64,000 bases of DNA from Deltaproteobacteria bacterium (GTDB lineage Bacteria; Myxococcota_A; UBA796; SXON01): assembly GCA_947445035.1 (NCBI GenBank), contig CANFCK010000024.1:1-64000 (forward strand). Reading direction: 5' to 3'. Position 1 is the first letter of the stretch, and every line of letters starts with the position of its first letter. Below, piece by piece: positions 13,477 to 24,351 of the stretch. Position numbers and translations under genes: made by a program. Under the pieces are notes generated by a model. It was not told where the DNA came from. It saw nothing but the letters and a program-made list of their open reading frames with translations, and made no database searches.

Positions 13477-14511
13477 CTAGGTTCCGAGCGTGTTCCCACA
13501 GAAAGACAGCTCGGTGGTGTAGCCGGAGGACGGGCTGATCACGTGCCGCGTGCTCACGATGTAGTATTTGCCGTTGTGGGGCATCTGCAGCCCGACGAAC
13601 TCGACGATGGCGCCCGCGTAGAGCGCATCGTCCCCGTCGACGATGCACGTGCCGCGCGCGAACTGGCGGGCCAAACGATTCAGCTCGGCCTTGGCGACAT
13701 CGTTTGCCATCGACTGCGAGGCGATGGGCACGTCGGTGATGTACGCGATCTGCTCGCCGAACTTGGACTCTGACAGCTTGGCGCCCGCCTGACCCCCGCC
13801 GATGGTCTCGATGTCGCCCGCAGAGGCGGTTCCGACGATCTCCTTCTTCTGGCGAATGTCCCACCCACGCACGACCACCTTGGTGACCTGATCCTGCGAG
13901 TTGAAGTTCATCCGCATGCTGCGGAGATTCTTTCCCATCTCGATCTTCTTGGGAGTGGTCGAGAGGCTGGCCTTCTTGAAGTGGAGCGTGCCCTCGTCGA
14001 CGGTGACCTGGAAGTTGTTCCGCGCCGCCAGCCGCTTGAGGAAGGTGAGGTTGGACTCGTTGCGCTGGAGCACGTAGTCGTGCGTTTCCGGCGTCGGATC
14101 ACACTTGACGGAAAGGTTCGATTCCCCACCGACGGTCTTGGCGATGTCGCTGTCCTTCTTCTTCTCGAAGGTCCGCGTCTTGCGGCCGCGGCCGAGGCGG
14201 TGGGCGTTGTCCAGCGCCTTCACGGTGAGCGTTGCGATGCCGTCGGCGCCCCAGCTCGGCTCCATCGCGGTGATCTCGCCCTTGAAGAGGGTGCGGCTGC
14301 CGCTGCCCATCTGGACCTCGACCGTTTGCCCGATCTCGGCCTCCCACTTGGGCGTGCCTTCGACGCCGCTCAGGCGCAAGGTCAGCATCTCCACCATGTC
14401 TACGTGGTCTTCGACCACGATCGACTCCACGCCGTCCCCCTCCGGCTGGGTGAGGGTTTGGCTTCCGAGGACGATTTTATAGCTGGTGGCGCTACGAGTG
14501 GACCCGGCCAT
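13477..14511 (-). CDS. eCIS spike-hub protein, gpD/VgrG-like (Afp8/Pvc8 type)
   Basis: The 344-residue product fits the late-control-D family. It has an N-terminal beta barrel (SIVVEDHVDMVEMLTLRL, then VEVQMGSGSRTLFKGEIT) and the second barrel start DYVLQRNESNLTFLKRLAAR, which is a hallmark of gpD/VgrG hubs. It ends in the short domain that in eCIS carries the central spike base (FVGLQMPHNGKYYIVSTRHV). In the particle it would sit below the tube as the trimeric hub. It is 12 bp downstream of the LysM adaptor gene. No gp25, PAAR or gpJ gene follows, which is where they normally lie. The family call is confident; function is inferred from homologous Afp and PVC particles. Confidence 0.9.
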   Translation of the reverse strand: MAGSTRSATSYKIVLGSQTLTQPEGDGVESIVVEDHVDMVEMLTLRLSGVEGTPKWEAEIGQTVEVQMGSGSRTLFKGEITAMEPSWGADGIATLTVKALDNAHRLGRGRKTRTFEKKKDSDIAKTVGGESNLSVKCDPTPETHDYVLQRNESNLTFLKRLAARNNFQVTVDEGTLHFKKASLSTTPKKIEMGKNLRSMRMNFNSQDQVTKVVVRGWDIRQKKEIVGTASAGDIETIGGGQAGAKLSESKFGEQIAYITDVPIASQSMANDVAKAELNRLARQFARGTCIVDGDDALYAGAIVEFVGLQMPHNGKYYIVSTRHVISPSSGYTTELSFCGNTLGT

Positions 14512-14523
14512 GAGTGGCTCCGA

Positions 14524-15378
14524 TCAGAAGATCTTTTTGAGGGCGTTCTTGGCAGCAGCGCTGGCAGCGCCGGTGACTGCCTTCTTGTTCGCGTCTTCGG
14601 CCGCTTTCCAAGCGCCCTTCGCATCGCCCGCGAGCACCGCGTCGACCGCCGCCCCGATCGCTTCCTTGCCGGCGGCGAGGGCTGCGCTCTTTGCGGCAGC
14701 CATGGCCTTGCTGGCGGCCGAGCTGGGTACCGTGAGCGTCTTTCCCGTCAGGTCGGCCATGGGGTCGGTGATCTTGTTGGCCGTGGCCAGCGCCCGCATG
14801 TCGACGCCGTTGGCCGCGGCCACCTGGGACACGGTCTCGCCGCCCTTGACGGAGATGAGCTTGATCTTATCGGCATTGAAGCGGCCAGAGCTGCCATAGC
14901 CGGCGAAGTTCGCCAGCTCCCACTGCTTGAGCTTGACGCTGCACCGCGCCCGCACTGCGGTGCCGTCCGAGGCGAACATCAGGAAAGTCGTCGAGATGCT
15001 TTCGATCACACACTGGAGCTCGAAGGTGCCCCATTGGAAGTGGAGCGCGGGCGGCCGCTTCTTGTCCTGCTCGGCGGGTTCGCCCTGCGCGGGAGTCTGG
15101 TCGGCGTTGGTCAACGACAACAGCTTGTCGACCCAAACCTTCTGCACGTTGGCGCCATCGGCCGTCGTGTCAAAGATCAGGTCGAACGACGCCGTCATCG
15201 GGGCGCCCTTCTGGAATTGGATCGGGTTGTTCGACTGTCCCTGATTGCTGGCTTCTTGCCAGGTCACGGACTTCTCGACCCGAAATTCCTTCGGGTTGTA
15301 CTGGACTTCGAACCCGGTGACCCCGGTGTCGAGGTTCAGGAACGACGCTTTCGAAGAGCTACCACCAACTGGTTTCAT
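14524..15378 (-). CDS. eCIS LysM adaptor protein (Afp7/Pvc7-like)
   Basis: The start at 15378 follows GGAGG by 6 bases; an ATG 6 bases upstream sits too close to that ribosome site. The product is about 284 residues. The N-terminal domain (FEVQYNPKEFRVEKSVTWQ, later PIQFQKGAPMTASFDLIFD) is the tail-tube-initiator-like fold of Pvc7 and T4 gp53/54-type adaptors. A LysM-like module follows (GGETVSQVAAANGVDMRALA ending TGKTLTVPSS). The C-terminal 80 residues are Ala/Lys-rich. In known particles this protein links the tube to the hub. The gene overlaps the end of the Ala-rich gene by 20 bp, so the two are probably coupled. Confidence 0.85.
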   Translation of the reverse strand: MKPVGGSSSKASFLNLDTGVTGFEVQYNPKEFRVEKSVTWQEASNQGQSNNPIQFQKGAPMTASFDLIFDTTADGANVQKVWVDKLLSLTNADQTPAQGEPAEQDKKRPPALHFQWGTFELQCVIESISTTFLMFASDGTAVRARCSVKLKQWELANFAGYGSSGRFNADKIKLISVKGGETVSQVAAANGVDMRALATANKITDPMADLTGKTLTVPSSAASKAMAAAKSAALAAGKEAIGAAVDAVLAGDAKGAWKAAEDANKKAVTGAASAAAKNALKKIF

Positions 15379-18300
15379 CGCCATCCTCCGTCCGCCGTTC
15401 CCGGCGGGTTTCAAGCTCACGGTTCACGACTTCGAGCACTTCGCGAGCGAAGACTTCGACGTCCAACTTCCCACCTTCGCCGCTGCCGCCGCTGACCGGG
15501 GCAGAGCCTTCCGCGCGCGCCGCCGCGGTATCTTCCGCCATTCGAACCTGCCCCCGCGCGTCGCTGAGCCGGCGTTCGGTCTCTGCGAGGTGGATGAGGT
15601 CGGTGAGGCGTTTGACGAGCTTGCTGACACGATCATCGGCGCCCCCGGCGCCGCGCACCGTCGCCGAAGAACGCACCGGACGGGTGGTTCCCCGATGGAC
15701 CGAGGCGCTGCTCGCAACGGGCTCCGAGCCACCGCGCAACATCGTCGCCGTCGGCCTCGGCACGTCGGGGGCGCGCGTGGAGAGGGTGGCCCCTTCCGCC
15801 GCGGCGGGCTTCCGAATCTCCTGGCGGATCTGTTCGACCACGTCACGCATCGGCGCTGAGAGCGGCACGGGACCGGGCATCGCGCCGGCGCGTGCGGCGA
15901 TGACGTTGACCACCTGCTCCGCGGTGGTGGCCCTGGCCAGCGACTCAAAGAGCCCCTGTGCCGAGCGCACCATTGGGGTGCCGTCGGAGCGCGCGGCCCA
16001 GGTGGGGGCGCCCGCGGCCGGCGTCGCCGCCGACACATCCGCGAGCGTGGTTTCCAACGACGGTCGTGCTGCGCGCACGGTGGGAGCGGCGCTGCGGGAG
16101 GCGGCGGCAGCGCGCCGGGCGGGAGTGCGGGAGGCCACCGCCTCGCGACGCGGGCCGGGGGTGACAGGGGAGGTGCCCTCGGAGAGGGAACCCACACCCG
16201 CAGGCGCCCTCGACGGAACCGTGCCGCCGCCGGCTTCGGAGCGAGCCGTCCGGGCAGAGACGAACTCCGCCTCAGGGGTGTTGAATGCGCCCGCACCCGC
16301 GAACACGCCATCCGGAGAACGCACGCCCATCGCGCCCCGGTACGCGGTCGCCGACGCGACGGCCGTCCGCGCCGATACCCAGTCGGTTGGCCGAGAACGA
16401 GTGACTGGTGCACCGGAGAACTGCCCCTGGGGGGGAGTGCCGCTGGCCGCATTGACGAAGCGGACCTGCGGGGTGCGAATCGTCGGTGAGCGAGGATTCG
16501 GCGCCGTCGACACGGCTATCGGACCGCTGATGCTGGGCAGCACCGATAGCCCAGGAAGGGCCTGCGCCACGCGGGCGGAGACGTAGCGCCCGTCGGGGGT
16601 TCGCACGGGCGTAGACTGGCTCCAGCTGCTCTGCACGAGGCCGGCTTCCGTCAACTCGGCGAGGAGCTGGGGAGGGACTGGGAAAACCGCCTCGGGCGCG
16701 CGGGGAGCGGCGCCGCGTGACGAGGGGGTCGGAGCGACGCCAGCGACCGGCGCTGCCGCCAGTCGTGCCGCCGGCGACACCGCCCGACGGGGTGGGGTGC
16801 CCGCGGTAGCGACCATCGTCGAATCCGCGTTCGGCCGCGCCCACGAGAGCGGACCCGACCGACGCACGGATGCGGGCGTGGACGCCTGCACCAGCGAAAC
16901 CGGCGCGCGCGCCGCAGGGCCGGAGGGTACCGCGCGGGCCACCGCGCGGGCGACGCCGCCGGCACCGGAAAGGGATGTCTTCGTCGGACGCGCCGCCGCC
17001 ACCACCGGGGCCACGACGCGGGCATCCGCGGCGACCGAACGGGCGGCCGGTGGCGTCGCTATCGACGTGCCGGGCGACGCGCCCTCCCGCTCCGGCAGAA
17101 CGAACGACGGCGGAGTGGCGTGCGGGAGCGCCGAGCGCGACGGGCGTGCGAGGTCAGCGAGCCGCGCCACAGCCCAGCCGACCGAGCCGGACGGGTGATC
17201 CACAGCGAGCGGCGCCTTGCCGACGACGGTGCCATCCGCCCCACGCGGCGTGGCGCCGACCCGCGTTGGCGCCGCTGCTGAGGGCGCCGCGCCGATGCCG
17301 CCAAGGGTGCCAACCGAAGCGCGGGGAGCCCCGCGTCCGGGAAGCGGGGACGCGGCGGGAGACTGGAGCTCGGGCGCGCTCGATGCGGCCACAAACTGAC
17401 CACCTGGGAGCCGCACCGCCGCCGACCGCCGGGCGCGGGCGACTGGCTGAGCCGCGCCGGCCGTCGCCTCTGCCGCGACAGCCACTGGGAGCGAAGAGCC
17501 GGGCCGTAGCGCAGGCAGGGCCCGACGCGCGGCGCGAAGGCTGGCTGCCACCGGGGGGAGGGCGACACGCGATCCGACTGGAGCGGCCGAAGCCTGCGCC
17601 ACCGCGGCGGGCGACGCTCCCGATGCGACGACCCGCTGCGAGGGCGCTGCCACCGACGTCGTAGCTGCTCCTACCGCCGGCGGCGCCGCCGGGGCTGCGG
17701 GCAGCACCGCGTCGGCGGCGCGCACCCGACTCGGGCGCGTGAATGCGCCGCTGGCCGTACGCACCAGGCGCGCTTCTGCCTGCGATGGCGGCCCTGCGTC
17801 GCCACGGGCCGTTGCGGCGGGCGCCACGGCAGCGTCCAATCCGATTGGCGCTACCGAACCGTAAACGGCCCGCGCGACCGCGGCCGCGGCCGGGCGGAAG
17901 CGCTGGACCGATTGGGGCGCAAACCCTGCTGCCTCGCCGCCGGCTGCTTCGCGGCCAGCGGCCGAGGAAGGCCGCGCGACAGGAGACGCCGCAACCGGGC
18001 GCCCGGCGCTGACGCGCGCAGCCGAGAGCGGCGACGCGCTGAGCGTGCTGACTTCGCGGCGGGTTTCTCCACGCGCGGCCGCCCGCTGCGCGGGCGGCGT
18101 GCGCCGCGCCGCCGCGGGGCGCATGGCTTCGCCGCGGGCGGGTACCGCCAGGGCTCCTGCCGCCGCTCGATCGAATTCCGCCTCGCCACCACTCGAAGCA
18201 GCCAGCGCGACCTGTACGGCGCGCGTACTGGCCCCAGAGGTGCGTGGCGCCGCTCCGCGAGCCACGGCGCGGGCCATAGACGCGGCGGGTGCCACAAAGG

Positions 18301-19030
18301 ACGCTTCGACCTGCCGGACGATCGGGCGCGCGAGCGCCGAGCGGCGGATGATCTCGACCGTTTCGACAGGGGTGGGATCGTCGACCAGAATACGCCGACG
18401 GACGCGCGCTATCGAGGCGCGTGCACTCTGGGGCAACTCCGCCACAGCGTCGGCGTGGGTGCGCGCCGCGACGGCGCCGGCAATCCGGGCCCCGGCGTAC
18501 GACGCCGCGCCCTGGCTGCGCGCGACACGCGCGGCTACGAACGGGGTGCTCTTCCACGGGTCCGACACCCCTGGCGTCGGCACGTTCGGCCGCCACGCCA
18601 CCCCCGCGAAGGTAGGCGGCGCCTCACCCGCGGCGGCGGCGGGCGCCGGCGCGAGCGGAAGCTGCATCGCTTCCAGCGCCAGCGACGCGATCCGCGGCGT
18701 CGGTAGTTTGCCTTCGCCCGGCCAGGCACGACGCGCGGCGCGCATCGTGGTGCCGGCACGTTGTTCGAGGAAGCGTTCCTGCCGGCGTTCGCGGCGTCGG
18801 CGCGCCGACGCGAGCTTCCGGAGCATCGCGTAGTAGGGCGCCGCAGACAAGAAAACCATCCCGTCGGCTTTGCCGCCGGTTTGAGCAGGCGCCAACGGCG
18901 CGCCCCAGGGATCGTCGAGGCCGAGGCGGGCGTAGAACGCGGGCGACATCCCGAGCCGGGGACGGCGACGCGTGCGCGCCTCCATCCGATCACTCAGGCC
19001 CTCTCCAGGGATTCGCCGATTCTCCGCCAT
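15359..19030 (-). CDS. Giant Ala/Pro/Arg-rich protein inside the eCIS cluster
   Basis: This 1223-residue protein has no recognised domain. The first ~100 residues are basic and more ordered (SPAFYARLGLDDPWGAP, YYAMLRKLASARRRRERR). The middle ~950 residues are low-complexity Ala, Arg, Pro, Ser and Thr with degenerate repeats such as VRTPDGRYVSARVAQ, IRTPQVRFVNAASG, VRSPDGVFAGAGA, EAEFVSARTARSEA and VRLPGGQFVAASSAPE. The last ~115 residues are charged and helical (SKLVKRLTDLIHLAETERRL; EVFAREVLEVVNRELETRRE). It lies between the tube and the LysM adaptor genes, a position with no giant protein in Afp or PVC. A ruler, scaffold or lumen component is possible. Confidence is high that it is a gene and low on its role. 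Confidence 0.75.
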   Translation of the reverse strand: MAENRRIPGEGLSDRMEARTRRRPRLGMSPAFYARLGLDDPWGAPLAPAQTGGKADGMVFLSAAPYYAMLRKLASARRRRERRQERFLEQRAGTTMRAARRAWPGEGKLPTPRIASLALEAMQLPLAPAPAAAAGEAPPTFAGVAWRPNVPTPGVSDPWKSTPFVAARVARSQGAASYAGARIAGAVAARTHADAVAELPQSARASIARVRRRILVDDPTPVETVEIIRRSALARPIVRQVEASFVAPAASMARAVARGAAPRTSGASTRAVQVALAASSGGEAEFDRAAAGALAVPARGEAMRPAAARRTPPAQRAAARGETRREVSTLSASPLSAARVSAGRPVAASPVARPSSAAGREAAGGEAAGFAPQSVQRFRPAAAAVARAVYGSVAPIGLDAAVAPAATARGDAGPPSQAEARLVRTASGAFTRPSRVRAADAVLPAAPAAPPAVGAATTSVAAPSQRVVASGASPAAVAQASAAPVGSRVALPPVAASLRAARRALPALRPGSSLPVAVAAEATAGAAQPVARARRSAAVRLPGGQFVAASSAPELQSPAASPLPGRGAPRASVGTLGGIGAAPSAAAPTRVGATPRGADGTVVGKAPLAVDHPSGSVGWAVARLADLARPSRSALPHATPPSFVLPEREGASPGTSIATPPAARSVAADARVVAPVVAAARPTKTSLSGAGGVARAVARAVPSGPAARAPVSLVQASTPASVRRSGPLSWARPNADSTMVATAGTPPRRAVSPAARLAAAPVAGVAPTPSSRGAAPRAPEAVFPVPPQLLAELTEAGLVQSSWSQSTPVRTPDGRYVSARVAQALPGLSVLPSISGPIAVSTAPNPRSPTIRTPQVRFVNAASGTPPQGQFSGAPVTRSRPTDWVSARTAVASATAYRGAMGVRSPDGVFAGAGAFNTPEAEFVSARTARSEAGGGTVPSRAPAGVGSLSEGTSPVTPGPRREAVASRTPARRAAAASRSAAPTVRAARPSLETTLADVSAATPAAGAPTWAARSDGTPMVRSAQGLFESLARATTAEQVVNVIAARAGAMPGPVPLSAPMRDVVEQIRQEIRKPAAAEGATLSTRAPDVPRPTATMLRGGSEPVASSASVHRGTTRPVRSSATVRGAGGADDRVSKLVKRLTDLIHLAETERRLSDARGQVRMAEDTAAARAEGSAPVSGGSGEGGKLDVEVFAREVLEVVNRELETRRERRTEDGDETSWW

Positions 19031-19043
19031 CTTTCCCTCCCGC

Positions 19044-19817
19044 CTAAGTGATCTGGATCCCGGAGTGGGCGATCTCTACCATCTCGACCGCGACTTCGGC
19101 GCTGTCCGCCGAAAAGTGCGGGCCTTCCCACGCGACGGGCCAGCCATCGGTGAAGTTGTACCGCCGCACTTCTTCGCCAGCGATGGTCATCATCACGATG
19201 CTGCCGCTTTTGCGCTTGGCGAATTCGTCCGACAGGATCTCGTTGCGCCACTGGGCAAGCTGGGTGTCGCTGCTGACGCCGTAGCGCAGCACGATGTTGT
19301 CCCACCGGGACTGGCCCGGAAGCTTGTGCACCCGGTGATTGACCCCGCCTTCTTCGATCTCGAAGATGGCCGTGCTGGACTTCAGCCCGCTGGCTTCTTT
19401 GAACTGGGCAACCGGGGTCGTGCTGCCGCCCAGCACCAGGTAAAACATGAAGCTCCCCTCGGGGTCGGCCACCCGGGGGCTCTTTTCAGGCCCGGTGTTG
19501 GTGCCGATCGACGTTTCCGCCCGTGCGTTTCCGGTCGCGGCCGTGCCCTTCATGGTGAACTTGATGTCCCCCCCGAAGTCGATCTTGGCGGCCAAGCTGG
19601 GCTGAGAGCCGCCACGGCCGCCGCCACGGCCCGCGCCGCCGGTGATGTCCAGCGACGGCTGAGAGCCAGGTCGTCCGCCGCCTTTTCCCGCGCCCCCGGT
19701 GATGGTGAGCGACGGCTGACTGCCCGGCCGGCCCCCGCCTTTGCCGGCGCCGCCCTTGATCTCGGGGGTGACCTGACCTTCAGCCCGGCCCATTCCGCGT
19801 CCGCGCCAGTCAGCCAT
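19044..19817 (-). CDS. eCIS tail tube protein with Gly-rich N-terminal repeat extension
   Basis: The 257-residue product has a C-terminal domain from about residue 113 (EGSFMFYLVLGG, AQFKEASGLKSSTAIFEIEE, GGVNHRVHKLPGQSRWDNIV, EMVEIAHSGIQIT). This is the T4 gp19-like tail tube fold of Pvc1/Pvc5 and phage tubes. Known eCIS tube proteins are about 150 residues. The extra ~110 N-terminal residues hold three 19-residue repeats (GGAGKGGGRPGSQPSLTIT and two variants, residues 22-78). No signal peptide is seen. In a hexameric ring the extension would point either into the lumen or toward the sheath. The gene follows the second sheath gene with a 36-bp gap. Confidence 0.9.
   Translation of the reverse strand: MADWRGRGMGRAEGQVTPEIKGGAGKGGGRPGSQPSLTITGGAGKGGGRPGSQPSLDITGGAGRGGGRGGSQPSLAAKIDFGGDIKFTMKGTAATGNARAETSIGTNTGPEKSPRVADPEGSFMFYLVLGGSTTPVAQFKEASGLKSSTAIFEIEEGGVNHRVHKLPGQSRWDNIVLRYGVSSDTQLAQWRNEILSDEFAKRKSGSIVMMTIAGEEVRRYNFTDGWPVAWEGPHFSADSAEVAVEMVEIAHSGIQIT
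19584..19754 (-). repeat. Three 57-bp tandem repeats coding Gly-rich 19-mers
   Basis: Three back-to-back 57-bp units encode GGAGKGGGRPGSQPSLTIT, GGAGKGGGRPGSQPSLDIT and GGAGRGGGRGGSQPSLAAK within the tail tube gene. The first two units are nearly identical; the third is more diverged, which suggests expansion from the 5' side. Confidence 0.9.
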
Positions 19818-19853
19818 GAGACCTCCGCAAAAGATCGCTATCCGAAGATCCGT

Positions 19854-21041
19854 CTACGTGCCCGGTGCCCCGAGACGAAGATCGATCAGAATCTGCTCGG
19901 TGGACCCGACCGGCTTGAGCTTCACCTCGACGTGGAGCTCGCCTCGGTCGCGCACGACGAGTGGGTTGGTCGACCGACTACACTCTACCGAATACTCTTC
20001 CATTGCGCGCGTGCCCGACAACAATCCGGCGTTCCACAGCTGCTCGAGTCTGGCCATCACATCGCGCTCAACCACCTTCCAAAGACCGGTTTCGTTGGGT
20101 TCGAAGATGGCCCACTCGTTGTCGCGCCGCAGCTGTTCACCGATCATGCTGACGATGCGGCGGCTGTTGATGAAGCTGAAGGTCGGGTCGGTCGACATTG
20201 TCCGGGCGCCCCAGACCACCACCCCACGGCCGGGGGCGACGAGCAGCGGGTTGATGCCCGCCTCGCCGACCAGCCCGACCTCGCTCCAGTCCATTTCGAC
20301 TTCGGTGTGGGTGACGCCGCGTACCGTGGTGTTGGCCGGGGGCCAGGCGATCCCGGTCGGCTGACGCTCGCGCTCCATCCGGGCGTAGACGCCCATCATC
20401 GCGCCGGAGGGGGGGAGCGCTTTGTCGCCTGCCATCAGGAAGGGGTAGTACACGGCACCCCACGCCCGCGTGGCCGGCTCCCGCGTGCGGAAATCGGCGA
20501 ACCAGCGCTGGAGAAGCTCGCCGTGCAGCCCGTGCGGGGCGTCCATCACGAAGAAGCGGTTGTTCATGGTCCGGCAGTGCGCCAGGAGCTCGTCCGCGAG
20601 GTCTTCGCCGCGCCAGCTGACGCGACCGGTCCTCGCGACGTCGCAGCGGAGGTAGGCCAGCGTCGGAACCGCGACGAGCGCGATCTCCTCTTCGGTGCGA
20701 AGCCGCTCGAAGAGGGACGACAGCGCCCCTTCCGCCAATCCGCCGCCGACGAGCGCCGTCTCATCTTCGATACACACGATCAGCAGGTGGAGCTCGTCGC
20801 CACCGTTCTCAAAGAAGCATCGTGCCGAGCTGCGGGTGATGGGATCGACCAGCTCACGGTGGGGATTGCGCGCGAGGTCTTCCCAGCGGCGCATCGGCAC
20901 GTGGAGAAAGTCGCCGGCGGTGGCGCCCTCGGGCCAGCGCGCGCGGTACAAAAACCCGATCATCGCGGCGATGTCGCACCGCACCAGCTCACGTGAGCGG
21001 CGCGGCGTCGAGTTGTGCTGGATCAGGATGCCGGGGCGCAT
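19854..21041 (-). CDS. Second eCIS sheath-like protein (Pvc3/Pvc4 type)
   Basis: The 395-residue protein ends in the sheath C-terminal domain: GVVVWGARTMSTDPTFSFIN, NEWAIFEPNETGLWKVVERD, QLWNAGLLSGTRAMEEYSVE and a final strand. These align with the main sheath encoded upstream (RVWGARTLGTASDPSWKYIN, QWAVFEPNDHSLWKKITRDL). The N-terminal half differs: it lacks the usual TPGVYIEE start and instead has ILIQHNSTPRRSRELVRCDI. Several eCIS carry two or three sheath paralogues; the minor ones form rings at the baseplate end. Placement between assembly factors and the tube gene fits that use. Confidence 0.85.
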   Translation of the reverse strand: MRPGILIQHNSTPRRSRELVRCDIAAMIGFLYRARWPEGATAGDFLHVPMRRWEDLARNPHRELVDPITRSSARCFFENGGDELHLLIVCIEDETALVGGGLAEGALSSLFERLRTEEEIALVAVPTLAYLRCDVARTGRVSWRGEDLADELLAHCRTMNNRFFVMDAPHGLHGELLQRWFADFRTREPATRAWGAVYYPFLMAGDKALPPSGAMMGVYARMERERQPTGIAWPPANTTVRGVTHTEVEMDWSEVGLVGEAGINPLLVAPGRGVVVWGARTMSTDPTFSFINSRRIVSMIGEQLRRDNEWAIFEPNETGLWKVVERDVMARLEQLWNAGLLSGTRAMEEYSVECSRSTNPLVVRDRGELHVEVKLKPVGSTEQILIDLRLGAPGT

Positions 21042-21051
21042 GTCGAGTCGT

Positions 21052-21255
21052 TCACCGGGGTGCGTTGATCTTCTCGTTGATCGTCGAGATCTCCTTTACC
21101 CAAGTATGCCGCTCCTTGTGCGACAACTCGAGGAGCGGTTCCCGCGCCCAGTGGAAGTGGTAGGCGATGAAAGCTACCTCCTTGAAGATGTTCTCCAGGG
21201 GGTAGCTTACGATTCCCCCAGGCGGCCAAACTCCTTCTCGAACTTGGCGCCGCAT
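21052..21255 (-). CDS. Small conserved eCIS protein (DUF6760-like)
   Basis: The 67-residue product contains SYPLENIFKEVAFIAYHFHW and then LLELSHKERHTWVKEISTIN. This fits a short family found in many eCIS clusters, where it is an assembly factor of unknown mechanism and resembles the phage GpE-type tape chaperone. The start is uncertain. The ATG at 21255 lies within the end of the upstream gene and gives 49 bp of overlap; no other ATG or GTG precedes the conserved block. A shorter product from a non-canonical start is possible. Confidence 0.7.
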   Translation of the reverse strand: MRRQVREGVWPPGGIVSYPLENIFKEVAFIAYHFHWAREPLLELSHKERHTWVKEISTINEKINAPR

Positions 21256-21578
21256 TCGGGACAGGTGACGGTGATCGTCGCTTCGTCTTCGTTGATGCGG
21301 TTGTACATCTCTTCGAGGAAGCGGAGATCGCCAGCAAAGAGGTTTTCGACGGTGCCGGTGTTCACTTCGTTGAGCGAGCCGAGGCGGATCACCACGCGGG
21401 AGAGCAAGACGATGATCAGGTAGGCGCGGTTGCGCTGGACGCGCATGTCCGTCAGCGGGGTGATCTCGTCCTTGGCGTTGGCGAGGCGCATGACGCCTTC
21501 ACGATGGAGCACCCCGTCTTTGTCGACGAAGCCGCGGGGGAGGATGAACTCGTACTCGGTCTTGAAGTCGGCAGCCAA
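21207..21578 (-). CDS. eCIS tail assembly protein with C-terminal zinc-type CPECG knuckle
   Basis: The 123-residue protein has the segment EFILPRGFVDKDGVLHREGV followed by MRLANAKDEITPL and AYLIIVLLSRVVIRLGSL. This is the signature of the small T4-like/eCIS assembly protein encoded next to the sheath in Afp-type clusters. Near the C-terminus CPECGAKFEKEF adds a two-Cys knuckle that could form half of a zinc site. It is one of the chaperone-like factors that are not part of the mature particle in related systems. It lies 94 bp downstream of the sheath, after a strong hairpin. Confidence 0.75.
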   Translation of the reverse strand: MAADFKTEYEFILPRGFVDKDGVLHREGVMRLANAKDEITPLTDMRVQRNRAYLIIVLLSRVVIRLGSLNEVNTGTVENLFAGDLRFLEEMYNRINEDEATITVTCPECGAKFEKEFGRLGES

Positions 21579-21619
21579 GGTGTCCTCGCGGGGATTCTGG
21601 AGTGAGGGGTGGGGGCGTT

Positions 21620-21647
21620 ATGGGGGAGGGCCCTCGCCCTCCCCCAT
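21620..21647 (-). terminator. Strong GC hairpin after the sheath gene
   Basis: A perfect 11-bp stem (ATGGGGGAGGG paired with CCCTCCCCCAT) with a 6-base loop lies 26 bp downstream of the sheath stop. There is no T-tract on the minus strand. It is therefore more likely a partial terminator or an RNA 3'-end stabiliser that raises sheath mRNA over downstream genes than a full stop. Confidence 0.55.
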
Positions 21648-21672
21648 CCCAAGATCAGCAGTTGGAAAGCGG

Positions 21673-23472
21673 CTACTCTTCGATGAGTGCGCCGCCGTCC
21701 CACTGGCCGATGCTGAAGATCACGAACTCCGCCGGCTTGACCGGACAGATGCCGATCTGGATGTTGACCTGGCCCGCGTCGATGAGGTAGCGCGGGTTGG
21801 TCTCGTCGTCACACTTGACGTAGAACGCCTCTTCTGCGGTGGTGCCGAACAGCGCGCCCGAGCGCCAGACGCGCATGAGGTAGGCGCGGAGATCGCGGGT
21901 GATCTTCTTCCACAACGAGTGATCGTTGGGCTCGAACACGGCCCACTGGCTGCCCAACATGATCGACTGCTCGACCATGATGAAGAGCCGGCGCACGTTG
22001 ATGTACTTCCAGGAGGGGTCGGAAGCCGTGCCGAGGGTACGGGCACCCCAGACGCGGACGCCGCGGTCCTTGAAGATGCGCACGACGTTGATGCCGCGGT
22101 CGTTGTACTGCCCCTGCTCCAGCCGGTTGATGTTCTGGCTGAGGCCGGTGATCCCCATCAGGATCTCGTTCGCGGGCGCCTTGTGCACGCCGCGTTCACC
22201 GTCGACGCGAGCGTAAAGCCCGGCGATGTGGCCGCTCGGCGGGACGAAGAGCTCGTTGCGCTCGGACTTGATGAGCTTGCGGCGGTTGGGGCCCGCGATC
22301 TTGATGTGCTCCTGGTTGCCGGTGAACCAGCTGGGCTTGGTGATGCGACACCACGGCACGTAGATGGCGCCATAGCCCTTGTTGCTGGCCGGGATGTCCA
22401 TGGCGCCATCGGAGATGATTGGCCCATCGAGGATCGCGAAGCGGTCCTTGCGGACCTCGCACAGCTCCAGCATTTCGCGCTGCTGGTTGGGGGTGAGGCC
22501 CGGCGCGACCATCAGGGCGATGTCGTCCACGTCGTCGAACGCGTACAACCCGAGCTTGTCGGCCTGGTTTTCACGAACCGAGCCCTCGGTGTCCTGCATG
22601 CCCATCAGGTAGACGTAGCACTTGCCGCCGCCGTTATCGAAGAAGCCGTTGACGCCCGCCACGAAGTTGAAGGTGGTGGGCTGGCTGAGCCAGTCCCGGA
22701 ACTCGGCCTTGAGCGCGTCGTCGCTGTTGAGCGCTTCGTACACCGCGTCTGCCGCGTCGTCGGGGTTGGTGAATGACTTGCCGACGAGGTCTTCGACCGG
22801 GCGGGTTTCGATCAGGTACTGGGCGAAGTAGCTCTGCAACCAGCGGAAGAACTCCGCCTTGTTGGTGATCGCGACCGGGGGCACCGAGTACTCACTGCGC
22901 ATCGCCGAGCCGGCGGTGCCCTTGACCTCGTAGCCGTAGGCGCCGAGCACGTCGGCGGCCGACTTCGGCTGGGGCTTGTCGAGCGGGAAGGTCTCGTGCA
23001 GGGAGTTGAGCAGCTTCTCGACGGCTTCGTCGGAGTCAGTGACCACCTTGCCGTCGACGCTCATGTTCACTTCAGGAACTTCGATCGTCTTTTCGGCCCA
23101 CGTGACCTTGACCTTGCCCTTGGTGCCCGCTTCGAACTTCGGAGCGGTGGGGCCGGCCTTGGCGGCGCCGTACAACTCGAAGTACTTCTTGACGTCGCGC
23201 ACGGCCTTGCGGTCGAGCTTCATCGACTGGGTGAGCGCGGTCGTCGCCTCGGCGGCATCGCCCTTGATGGCGCCCTTTTCGTCGATGAGCTGCGGCGCGA
23301 CCTTGCCCTTGAGCTGGCGCTTGCCGTTGCTCCCGGTGATCGCCGTCGCGTCGATCGGCGGCTTGAAGTTGAACAACCCGAGGAAGCCCGGGATGGACGT
23401 GGAGACCGACGCAATCGGCTTGGCGCCGCTGTCGACCTCACGAATATAGACGCCTGGGGTATGATAATCCAT
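21673..23472 (-). CDS. eCIS contractile sheath protein (Afp2/Pvc2 type)
   Basis: At 599 residues it starts with the sheath signature MDYHTPGVYIREVDSGAKPI and STSIPGFLGLF. The C-terminal half has GVRVWGARTLG, YINVRRLFIMVEQSIM, QWAVFEPNDHSLWKKI and ends QIGICPVKPAEFVIFSIGQW. This is the canonical phage_sheath_1 layout. An insertion domain of about 250 residues in the middle accounts for the length. It forms the outer contractile cylinder, whose contraction drives the inner tube. A GGAGG lies about 8 bp before the ATG, and the stop of the DUF4255 gene is only 3 bp upstream, so it is in the same operon. Confidence 0.95.
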   Translation of the reverse strand: MDYHTPGVYIREVDSGAKPIASVSTSIPGFLGLFNFKPPIDATAITGSNGKRQLKGKVAPQLIDEKGAIKGDAAEATTALTQSMKLDRKAVRDVKKYFELYGAAKAGPTAPKFEAGTKGKVKVTWAEKTIEVPEVNMSVDGKVVTDSDEAVEKLLNSLHETFPLDKPQPKSAADVLGAYGYEVKGTAGSAMRSEYSVPPVAITNKAEFFRWLQSYFAQYLIETRPVEDLVGKSFTNPDDAADAVYEALNSDDALKAEFRDWLSQPTTFNFVAGVNGFFDNGGGKCYVYLMGMQDTEGSVRENQADKLGLYAFDDVDDIALMVAPGLTPNQQREMLELCEVRKDRFAILDGPIISDGAMDIPASNKGYGAIYVPWCRITKPSWFTGNQEHIKIAGPNRRKLIKSERNELFVPPSGHIAGLYARVDGERGVHKAPANEILMGITGLSQNINRLEQGQYNDRGINVVRIFKDRGVRVWGARTLGTASDPSWKYINVRRLFIMVEQSIMLGSQWAVFEPNDHSLWKKITRDLRAYLMRVWRSGALFGTTAEEAFYVKCDDETNPRYLIDAGQVNIQIGICPVKPAEFVIFSIGQWDGGALIEE

Positions 23473-23475
23473 GAT

Positions 23476-24351
23476 TCAGTCCTCCGAGTCTGAGTCAGAA
23501 TCCGCGTTCTTGCGGAAGAAGTGCGCGGTCGGCCCGATGACCGGTCGCGGCTTTTGCGGAGGCAGTCCAGGACGGATGCGCCCGTTTCGAGACGATTCTT
23601 GACCATCCGCTGGGGGCGAGGTGGCCGAGAGCCTTCCCATGCGAACGGTCGAGCCGCCCGCACTCTTGTACAAGGGTCCATCTAACGCCACGCGTGCTCG
23701 ATAAGTCAAGAACGGGCGGTAGGGAGCCTCATGAAGCGTGAACAGATTGATGGCGTCGCCGACCGTGAGATCGTCGGTCAACGCCAAGGAAACCTTTTCG
23801 ACGAGCAGCCCATCATCGGCGCCCTTTTCGTCCTCTTCTTCGGGCGGTTGCCCGGTGAAGCAGTTGACGTCGTAGGTGCGGCCGAGGCTGTCCACCTCGC
23901 GACCGTCGGGGAGCGCAAAGCGGCGCGGTCGATGGATCAGATGGGTGGCTTCGTTGAGGCGGACGAGCAGCCAGCCCATCAATCGTTCGGCATCGCTGCG
24001 GAATTTGCTGTGTACCGCAACGAGATAGTAGAGATCGAGCAGAAGCGGCGGCCGGTGGTAGTAGACCTCGCCCTCGGACGCGTCGGTCTTAACGAAGACC
24101 GGCGCCTGCCGGTGGCGCTTGCTGTTGAGCAACGCCGGGTTCTGGGCCAGGCGGTACATGTAGATGTACAGCACCTCTTCGCGATCCTTTGGGATGAACT
24201 TCAGCTCTTCTTCGAGCCGCGGCGGCTGCCCGCCGAGGTTGTAGCCGTCGACCAAAAACTTGTGGAGCGCCTCGGTGGTTTCGCCGATGATGCCCCGGCC
24301 CGACGCCGGCCCGGCGGTGGCCAGGAGCGCGGCGTGCTCCGCGGGGGTCAA
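23476..24351 (-). CDS. eCIS terminal/cap protein, DUF4255 (Pvc16-like)
   Basis: The 291-residue protein has an N-terminal ~200-residue DUF4255 domain: ALHKFLVDGYNLGGQPPRLE, VYYHRPPLLLDLYYLVAVHS, RLMGWLLVRLNEATHLIHRP and SLALTDDLTVGDAINLFTLH. In PVC and Afp, Pvc16 forms the cap that ends sheath and tube growth. The C-terminal ~80 residues are Pro/Ser-rich and end in an acidic DSDSDSED. Its ATG overlaps the stop of the upstream 145-residue ORF (ATGA). The gene is first or second in the visible eCIS operon, which is the common position. Confidence 0.9.
   Translation of the reverse strand: MTPAEHAALLATAGPASGRGIIGETTEALHKFLVDGYNLGGQPPRLEEELKFIPKDREEVLYIYMYRLAQNPALLNSKRHRQAPVFVKTDASEGEVYYHRPPLLLDLYYLVAVHSKFRSDAERLMGWLLVRLNEATHLIHRPRRFALPDGREVDSLGRTYDVNCFTGQPPEEEDEKGADDGLLVEKVSLALTDDLTVGDAINLFTLHEAPYRPFLTYRARVALDGPLYKSAGGSTVRMGRLSATSPPADGQESSRNGRIRPGLPPQKPRPVIGPTAHFFRKNADSDSDSED

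Follow-up and report, generated by a model that had tools for sequence, protein, structure and literature searches.

The 64,000-nucleotide stretch analysed here (the window; positions 1 to 64,000 of contig CANFCK010000024.1, assembly GCA_947445035.1, Deltaproteobacteria bacterium, placed by GTDB in Myxococcota_A) carries part of an extracellular contractile injection system (eCIS) whose minus-strand genes follow the order cap (Pvc16_N), sheath, a 123-aa zinc-motif protein, a second sheath, tube, a 1223-aa protein hereafter named X, LysM/CIS_tube adaptor and GPD hub. X is the longest open reading frame (ORF) of the window and runs on the minus strand from an ATG at 19030 to a stop at 15359, while frame 1 of the plus strand over the same stretch contains seven stops. 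Its start lies 13 bp past the stop of the tube gene, and at the 3' end it shares 62 bp with the LysM ORF in the listed form. A first-pass annotation of the window had described an Ala/Pro/Arg-rich protein lying between tube and LysM adaptor and overlapping the latter; its coordinates and length were exact, the strand being minus, and both the location and the composition (A 23%, P 10.5%, R 12%, with no Cys) were borne out.

The ratio of non-synonymous to synonymous nucleotide substitution (dN/dS) was calculated for separate parts of X. Against the closest relatives compared (L153 and L154; genomes, contigs and loci are cited by the prefixes G, C and L) dN/dS was 0.06–0.12 for residues 1–130, 0.22–0.25 for residues 131–1000 and 0.11 for the C-terminal part, and against the two more distant relatives (L157 and L158), to which the middle of X is 47% identical, the corresponding values were 0.17–0.21, 0.37–0.39 and 0.16–0.17. 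The gene was found in the same place in 20/20 regions from the same genus or family, all of which were chosen for having a PF19266 match, and frames of 1184–1482 aa (trimmed to the conserved start) were open in all 11 family loci with both tube and LysM present. X is a real gene maintained under selection. A chance open frame in GC-rich DNA, to which the low-complexity translation and the numerous overlapping long ORFs would point, was rejected as highly improbable on the grounds of this conservation, of dN/dS values of 0.06–0.39 against four relatives and of 53 C-terminal profile matches (described below) in none of which a stop interrupted the matched stretch.

Distribution of X and of other proteins in its slot

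A profile of the last 101 residues of X (A1) was searched against 71 genomes of the class, the relatives being draft genomes, and matched 52 of them, all within the order (52/63 inside, 0/8 outside). These matches fell in 53 places, 52 of which lay directly upstream of a PF19266 match with profile edges within approximately 75 bp (coordinates compared by eye). The exception (G031:C277; L126:9406-11019) is a second X-like C-terminus in its genome, situated close to the end of its contig; the genes after it are unrelated, and LysM is absent from the 11 kb fetched. Eight of the 11 order genomes without X were also without a PF19266 match and the other three (G042, G046 and G053) possessed a more divergent contractile injection system (CIS), with a slot ORF of 633 aa in G046. 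Within the family, G021 has neither PF19266 nor X.

A second collection, assembled by contig scan and consisting largely of the same assemblies, contained 21 loci with LysM present in all of them. Its records were mostly titled Deltaproteobacteria, Myxococcales, proteobacterium or Pseudomonadota and included lake names among the isolates; two Klebsiella titles and one Bifidobacterium title cannot be right. X also stays with tube, LysM and hub although the other baseplate genes of its own genome lie on two other contigs. The first-pass annotation had called X a core gene and had named, as evidence that would speak against its proposal, homologues occurring mostly away from eCIS loci; the position of 52/53 C-terminal matches beside the LysM gene, together with the 21 loci of the second collection, shows the opposite, and that X is a core eCIS gene of its lineage is well supported.

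Among 25 phylum-level loci outside the class, 20 encoded an Ala/Pro/Gly-rich low-complexity slot ORF of 551–1670 aa (19 with tube and LysM, plus L140, whose contig stops short of the tube), and 15 of these 20 outgroup slot proteins end in a helix of the type DLDGLAAEMSERILRRLKRDKERRG. DUF5908 occupies the slot in L122, and nothing comparable was present in L141, L142 and L143, which are extra CIS loci of G139 and G116 (L142 having a 289-aa ORF of another kind). The last of the 25, L144, is prophage-like. Among the class-level loci outside the order, L097 showed a different gene order with a 1704-aa acidic ORF in a 10-kb gap, and no slot ORF longer than 147 aa was present in the second CIS loci of order genomes (L145–L150). 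A large slot protein is widespread but not universal.

Conserved ends and variable middle of X

Conservation in X is limited to its ends, which comprise short helices and one long basic helix at the N-terminus and a small helical element plus two helices at the C-terminus. The ordered ends described by the first-pass annotation thus exist as helices and not as globular domains, as AlphaFold2 mean pLDDT was 69 for the N-terminal and 64 for the C-terminal model. X is defined by its conserved terminal helices and not by its repeats.

The repeats themselves are real. The motif [VILFM][RN][TSL][PAG]x2-3[FY][VATE] matched X seven times, whereas 2000 shuffles averaged 0.045 matches and never gave more than 2; the ratio is flattering because the motif was composed after the repeats had been seen. 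Repeat starts at residues 423, 539, 809, 851, 903, 916 and 1021, two of them 13 aa apart, do not support the claimed spread over 950 residues, since five of the seven fall at 809–1021. The three main copies are spaced by 42 and 52 aa, distances that recur unchanged in L033, L037 and L042 and almost unchanged in L031 and L036; in L031 a 13-aa unit has expanded in tandem (39 bp, 6.7 copies). Outside the genus but within the family, repeats were present in L042 and to some extent in L049, while five of seven full-length proteins from other family genera (L041, L043, L046, L048 and L050) had none or single loose matches. The repeats are part of the variable middle and are limited to the genus of X and a few neighbours.

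The length of X in complete loci of the order extends from 206 aa (G022) and 545 aa (G031) up to 1879 aa (G054). Within the family the mean was 1260 aa with a standard deviation of 84 (range 1184–1482; 12 sequences), statistics that exclude L178, where the X frame starts 2 kb past the tube, and loci cut by contig ends (L032, L034, L035, L038–L040, L044, L045, L047 and others). Net charge ranged from +47 to +73 across the 12 family members. X contains no membrane segment, its maximum KD19 value being 1.26, with up to 1.66 in the family rows tested and 2.93 in the tape measure of a prophage-like locus (L144) considered below. X matched no Pfam, NCBIfam or PHROG family, and neither X nor its C-terminus retrieved a significant sequence match from PDB; a T7 virion-assembly match (E ~0.01) and a gp16 tape-measure match in PDB (E 6.7) were treated as chance.

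Comparison with the spike plug and the tape measure

The gene order of Afp and PVC was used as background for placing X. The first-pass annotation had held that no eCIS from Afp or PVC has such a protein at this site, a statement that is wrong or incomplete, as the slot is occupied there by Afp6/Pvc6, a small spike plug. The site is not new because Afp and PVC encode Afp6/Pvc6 in it and a phage-type locus encodes its tape measure there. Two reports describe Alg6 and Cis6, orthologues of Afp6/Pvc6, as a trimeric plug with a C-terminal helix in the tube-facing cavity of the spike, and also state that Alg6 touches Alg7 and Alg8, that AlgoCIS without Alg6 does not assemble and that the tube lumen is negatively charged (PMC8894135, PMC8894136).

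Searches for the plug family DUF5908 (E<=0.001) identified it in two of 188 phylum genomes, G187 and, weakly, G023, the match in the latter being below cut-off, with an internal stop and on another contig than its eCIS. The only genome with a canonical DUF5908 (G187, 53 aa) carries it in the tube–LysM slot, and this protein matches Algo6 (7aef) at 1.3e-6 and Asl3322 (7b5h) at 2.8e-4. No DUF5908 match was found in the genome of X itself, and a tblastn search of plasmids with the DUF5908 protein gave no match.

Profile comparison by hhalign connected the C-terminal helix of X (23 order proteins) to that of 15 outgroup slot proteins with E=1.4e-6 and a probability of 90, and none of 300 column shuffles scored as high. 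The outgroup profile left out L098, L104, L106, L108 and L139 for their divergent ends, although L098 and L104 were included in alignment A2. Against a plug profile of three sequences (G187 DUF5908, Algo6 and Asl3322) the outgroup C-termini scored 17.1, a value reached by 1/300 shuffles. As shuffles destroy helix periodicity, 189 windows of other eCIS proteins, not all of them helical, were compared with the plug as well; the highest scored 12.3 and none reached either of the plug scores, of the outgroup or of X. When 12 slot C-termini (11 from the outgroup and that of G046) were compared with Pfam at E<=10, DUF5908 was the sole family returned, with matches below threshold in 4/12 and a best value of 0.015.

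X resembles the spike plug in its gene slot between tube (adaptor) and LysM adaptor and in a C-terminal amphipathic helix that ends in charged residues, the profile link running mainly via the outgroup slot proteins. It differs in that the plug has 50–60 aa with an N-terminal strand, while X, at 1223 aa, combines a long disordered chain with a pair of C-terminal helices and is missed by the Pfam model. These sequence comparisons are suggestive of homology between the C-terminal helix of X and the plug, the link through the outgroup proteins being stronger than the direct one.

We tentatively favour, at close to an even chance, the interpretation that X is the plug-position protein (Cis6/Alg6/Afp6 slot) of its eCIS lineage, enlarged with a lumen-filling chain. 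The enlarged slot protein would usually be a chain of 1000–1900 residues. Its C-terminal helices (1132–1217) would form a plug, probably trimeric, beside the LysM adaptor in the cavity by which the GPD hub faces the tube, and the Ala/Pro/Arg-rich cationic chain of approximately 900 residues may extend up the tube lumen toward the cap, held there by charge. In filling the lumen this chain might take over the tape-measure function in part or entirely, as a filler and possibly as a ruler, and X would be expelled together with the tube when the machine fires. Being encoded between tube and adaptor, X would already be available at initiation. By our own arithmetic, which takes the published AlgoCIS lumen size (90 nm x 3.6 nm), three 1260-aa chains would occupy approximately 500 nm3 or about half of the lumen, so a filler is physically reasonable. 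The trimer, the hub contact, the lumen location and the ejection are inferred.

Several results weigh against a plug with a lumen-filling chain. The direct hhalign comparison of X (order) with the three-row plug alignment gave a weak score of 14.35, which 4/300 shuffles reached, and the column-shuffle control is lenient because of the lost helix periodicity. X and 14 relatives matched no DUF5908 model, the slot C-terminal profiles did not retrieve Algo6 from the PDB set and Foldseek with the C-terminal model of X gave no match at E<=0.001. X is also without the N-terminal strand (MPxEIxEL) seen in the plug alignment, its own N-terminus being helical. Five of the 20 outgroup slot proteins (those left out of the profile) have divergent ends, and one of them, L108, matched an unrelated family at 0.22. 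A positive charge is not universal among the outgroup slot proteins (L104 -21, L108 -12, L103 +2), and since the G022 form has only 206 aa the long middle is not indispensable. Finally, four of five class-level loci outside the order (L094, L095, L096 and L110) had no slot ORF longer than 83 aa, so some related machines manage without this gene.

Alternatively, X may be a true tape measure that dictates how long the tube becomes, like those of phages and like Afp14, with its C-terminus anchored in the hub and its N-terminus at the cap, although we consider this unlikely. The prophage-like locus L144 (G088; L144:1659-9474) encodes a sheath (by eye), tube, CPEC protein, PF10145 tape measure and CIS_tube protein in an overall order resembling the eCIS arrangement, a single plus-strand ORF separating the tube and CPEC genes. 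Its 937-aa tape measure matches PF10145 (E 2.3e-32) and many PHROG tape measures, and as it lies between tube and CIS_tube protein the slot of X is also the phage tape-measure slot. With tape measures in general (PF10145; Afp14/Pvc14; diffocin CD1366) X has in common the slot before adaptor and hub genes, the status of largest ORF and a conserved C-terminus, and the diffocin tape measure (CD1366) is described as forming a trimer on the spike with its C-terminal helices. Length differs little across the family despite the 47% identity of the middle in more distant relatives, and the 123-aa protein encoded nearby shows a weak likeness to tail assembly chaperones (E 0.024, and 0.0073 in a relative). 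PF10145 was absent from 18 of 19 genomes searched, including that of X, the remaining genome (G028) having one on another contig, a search that did not cover Afp14-like genes; no other long tape-measure-like ORF was seen by eye in the G032 cluster (689-kb contig). A typical Afp14 is likewise reported to be missing from Streptomyces clusters.

X nevertheless differs from tape measures in other respects, as it matches no tape-measure family and possesses a Pro-rich middle in place of a coiled-coil body (no coiled-coil predictor was run) and no transmembrane segment. The argument from the chaperone is weakened because in L144 the matches of the CPEC protein are to T4_baseplate and to a PHROG labelled 'baseplate hub', not to a chaperone. 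A 1260-aa chain would measure approximately 190 nm as a helix and 440 nm when extended (our own arithmetic), compared with about 90 nm for the AlgoCIS tube, and lengths of 206–1879 aa within one order would demand wildly different tubes. This length range makes a strict ruler unlikely, and X as a strict ruler is doubtful. From the list of roles offered by the first-pass annotation, lumen plug and ruler are among the best readings, the former at close to an even chance and the latter in its strict form in doubt.

In the passages of open-licence papers that were searched, no protein of this kind was described for the slot, the nearest being Tme of the Streptomyces davawensis CIS (PMC11126660), which resembles X in being large, mostly (~70%) disordered and encoded just upstream of baseplate genes, a likeness that also bears on the tape-measure interpretation. 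Tme differs in having DUF4157, transmembrane helices and a C-terminal nuclease, whereas X has no recognised domain and gave no DUF4157 or endonuclease match.

A further possibility, which we regard as improbable, is that X enters the lumen as cargo or as an adaptor for it, perhaps aided by the AAA ATPase, and is either delivered or tethers effectors through its repeats. Disordered N-termini are reported to serve as loading signals in eCIS, and six order loci (L082, L090–L093 and L113) have upstream of the cap a gene pair labelled by eye as encoding an AAA ATPase and a DUF4157-like protein. Two of the DUF4157-like proteins have in common with X an N-terminal PGE/D...R motif, a putative loading signal found in 11/20 X proteins, and the rapid repeat turnover in L031 would also suit cargo. 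The motif evidence is thin, however, at six matches in 1138 ORF starts (two X-type, two DUF4157-type and two others), and a loading motif common to X and DUF4157-like proteins is only a lead. The effector reading is lowered because no domain could be recognised in X; the repeats occur only in one genus and a few neighbours, and a protein with one copy per machine and conserved position and ends looks structural. Coordinates of the DUF4157-like/AAA pair, labelled by eye, are L113:6388-9176 and L082:3650-6410, and a DUF4157-like small protein occurs at the opposite cluster end in L131:15396-16223.

Slightly less probable still is an intracellular assembly scaffold or chaperone for the tube/adaptor/hub complex that is not present in the finished particle. 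X is encoded between the parts to be assembled and has a long basic low-complexity chain, as such a factor might, but wherever structures exist the known slot occupants, plug and tape measure, belong to the particle.

A bolder reading is that plug and tape measure are one family, in which a fast-evolving disordered protein in an ancestral tape-measure slot serves both functions in many eCIS believed to have neither, while anchored to the hub by its C-terminal helices; the tiny Alg6/Pvc6 would then be a remnant after loss of the chain and the 206-aa form of G022 an intermediate. We consider this about as unlikely as the true tape measure. One paper states that lineage II eCIS often are without pvc6, pvc10 and pvc14 homologues (PMC11495950), a lineage to which the present loci may or may not belong. 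X may bear on the question of how length and lumen content are set in eCIS without plug or tape-measure homologues. A conserved, position-fixed and disordered protein missed by family models would be a candidate for both missing parts (Pvc6 and Pvc14), would connect the plug of eCIS with the tape measure of phages and would account for the occupant of the lumen. The forms of 206, 545, ~1260 and 1879 aa in different species offer a natural test of the ruler idea.

Neighbouring genes of the eCIS locus

Table. Parts of X and neighbouring eCIS genes, with positions in the window
Feature	Positions	Strand	Evidence or remark
X, whole gene	15359..19030	minus	open frame; dN/dS well <1 in all parts; syntenic homologues
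X, N-terminal conserved region, residues 1-130 (helices 10-21, 30-36, 64-100)	18641..19030	minus	alignment A6; AlphaFold2 mean pLDDT 69
X, long low-complexity middle, residues 131-1008, variable in length and sequence, absent in G022	16007..18640	minus	
X, main cluster of degenerate repeats, residues 809-930, 13-aa unit	16241..16606	minus	
X, small three-helix element, residues 1024-1073	15812..15961	minus	alignment A5, AlphaFold2
X, long conserved helix, residues 1132-1175 (KLVKxLxxLIHLAE...QVRMAED)	15506..15637	minus	
X, C-terminal helix, residues 1191-1217; similar to other slot proteins and weakly to the spike plug	15380..15460	minus	
GPD hub/spike N-terminal part (Afp8 type)	13477..14511	minus	PF05954 E=1.6e-15
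LysM/CIS_tube adaptor (Afp7 type), overlaps X end	14524..15420	minus	PF19266 E=4.8e-27, LysM 1.4e-4
Inner tube/tube adaptor (gp19 type), N-terminal repeat extension	19044..19817	minus	PF06841 E=6.7e-33; NCBIfam CIS5 1e-22, below cut-off
Second sheath protein	19854..21041	minus	PF17482, PF04984
123-aa protein, C-terminal CPECG zinc motif	21207..21578	minus	weak match to tail assembly chaperones; no convincing Pfam match
Main sheath	21673..23472	minus	PF17482 E=4.4e-17, PF04984
Cap (Pvc16_N)	23476..24351	minus	PF14065 E=1.5e-12

The N-terminal extension of the tube protein, approximately 115 residues long and containing 2.7 copies of a 57-bp (19-aa) Gly-rich repeat (19600-19754), seems unusual for a gp19-type tube. 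Most annotated CIS loci have a CPECG-type gene beside those for sheath and tube.

In this genome the eCIS genes are spread over three contigs, with cap to hub in the window (13477-24351), gp25 and a ubiquitin-like/membrane/zinc protein on C36 (14859-16263; L071) and gpJ-gpI-p311 on C1 (C1:237972-243513; L175), while other families of the order keep their eCIS genes in one cluster. The protein on C36 (14859-15830; L071) and its counterparts at L078:7882-8826 and L077:12550-13461, encoded within the clusters or close to them, show, by eye, a ubiquitin-like N-terminus, membrane segments and a zinc-finger-like end, and may possibly serve as a membrane anchor of the machine.

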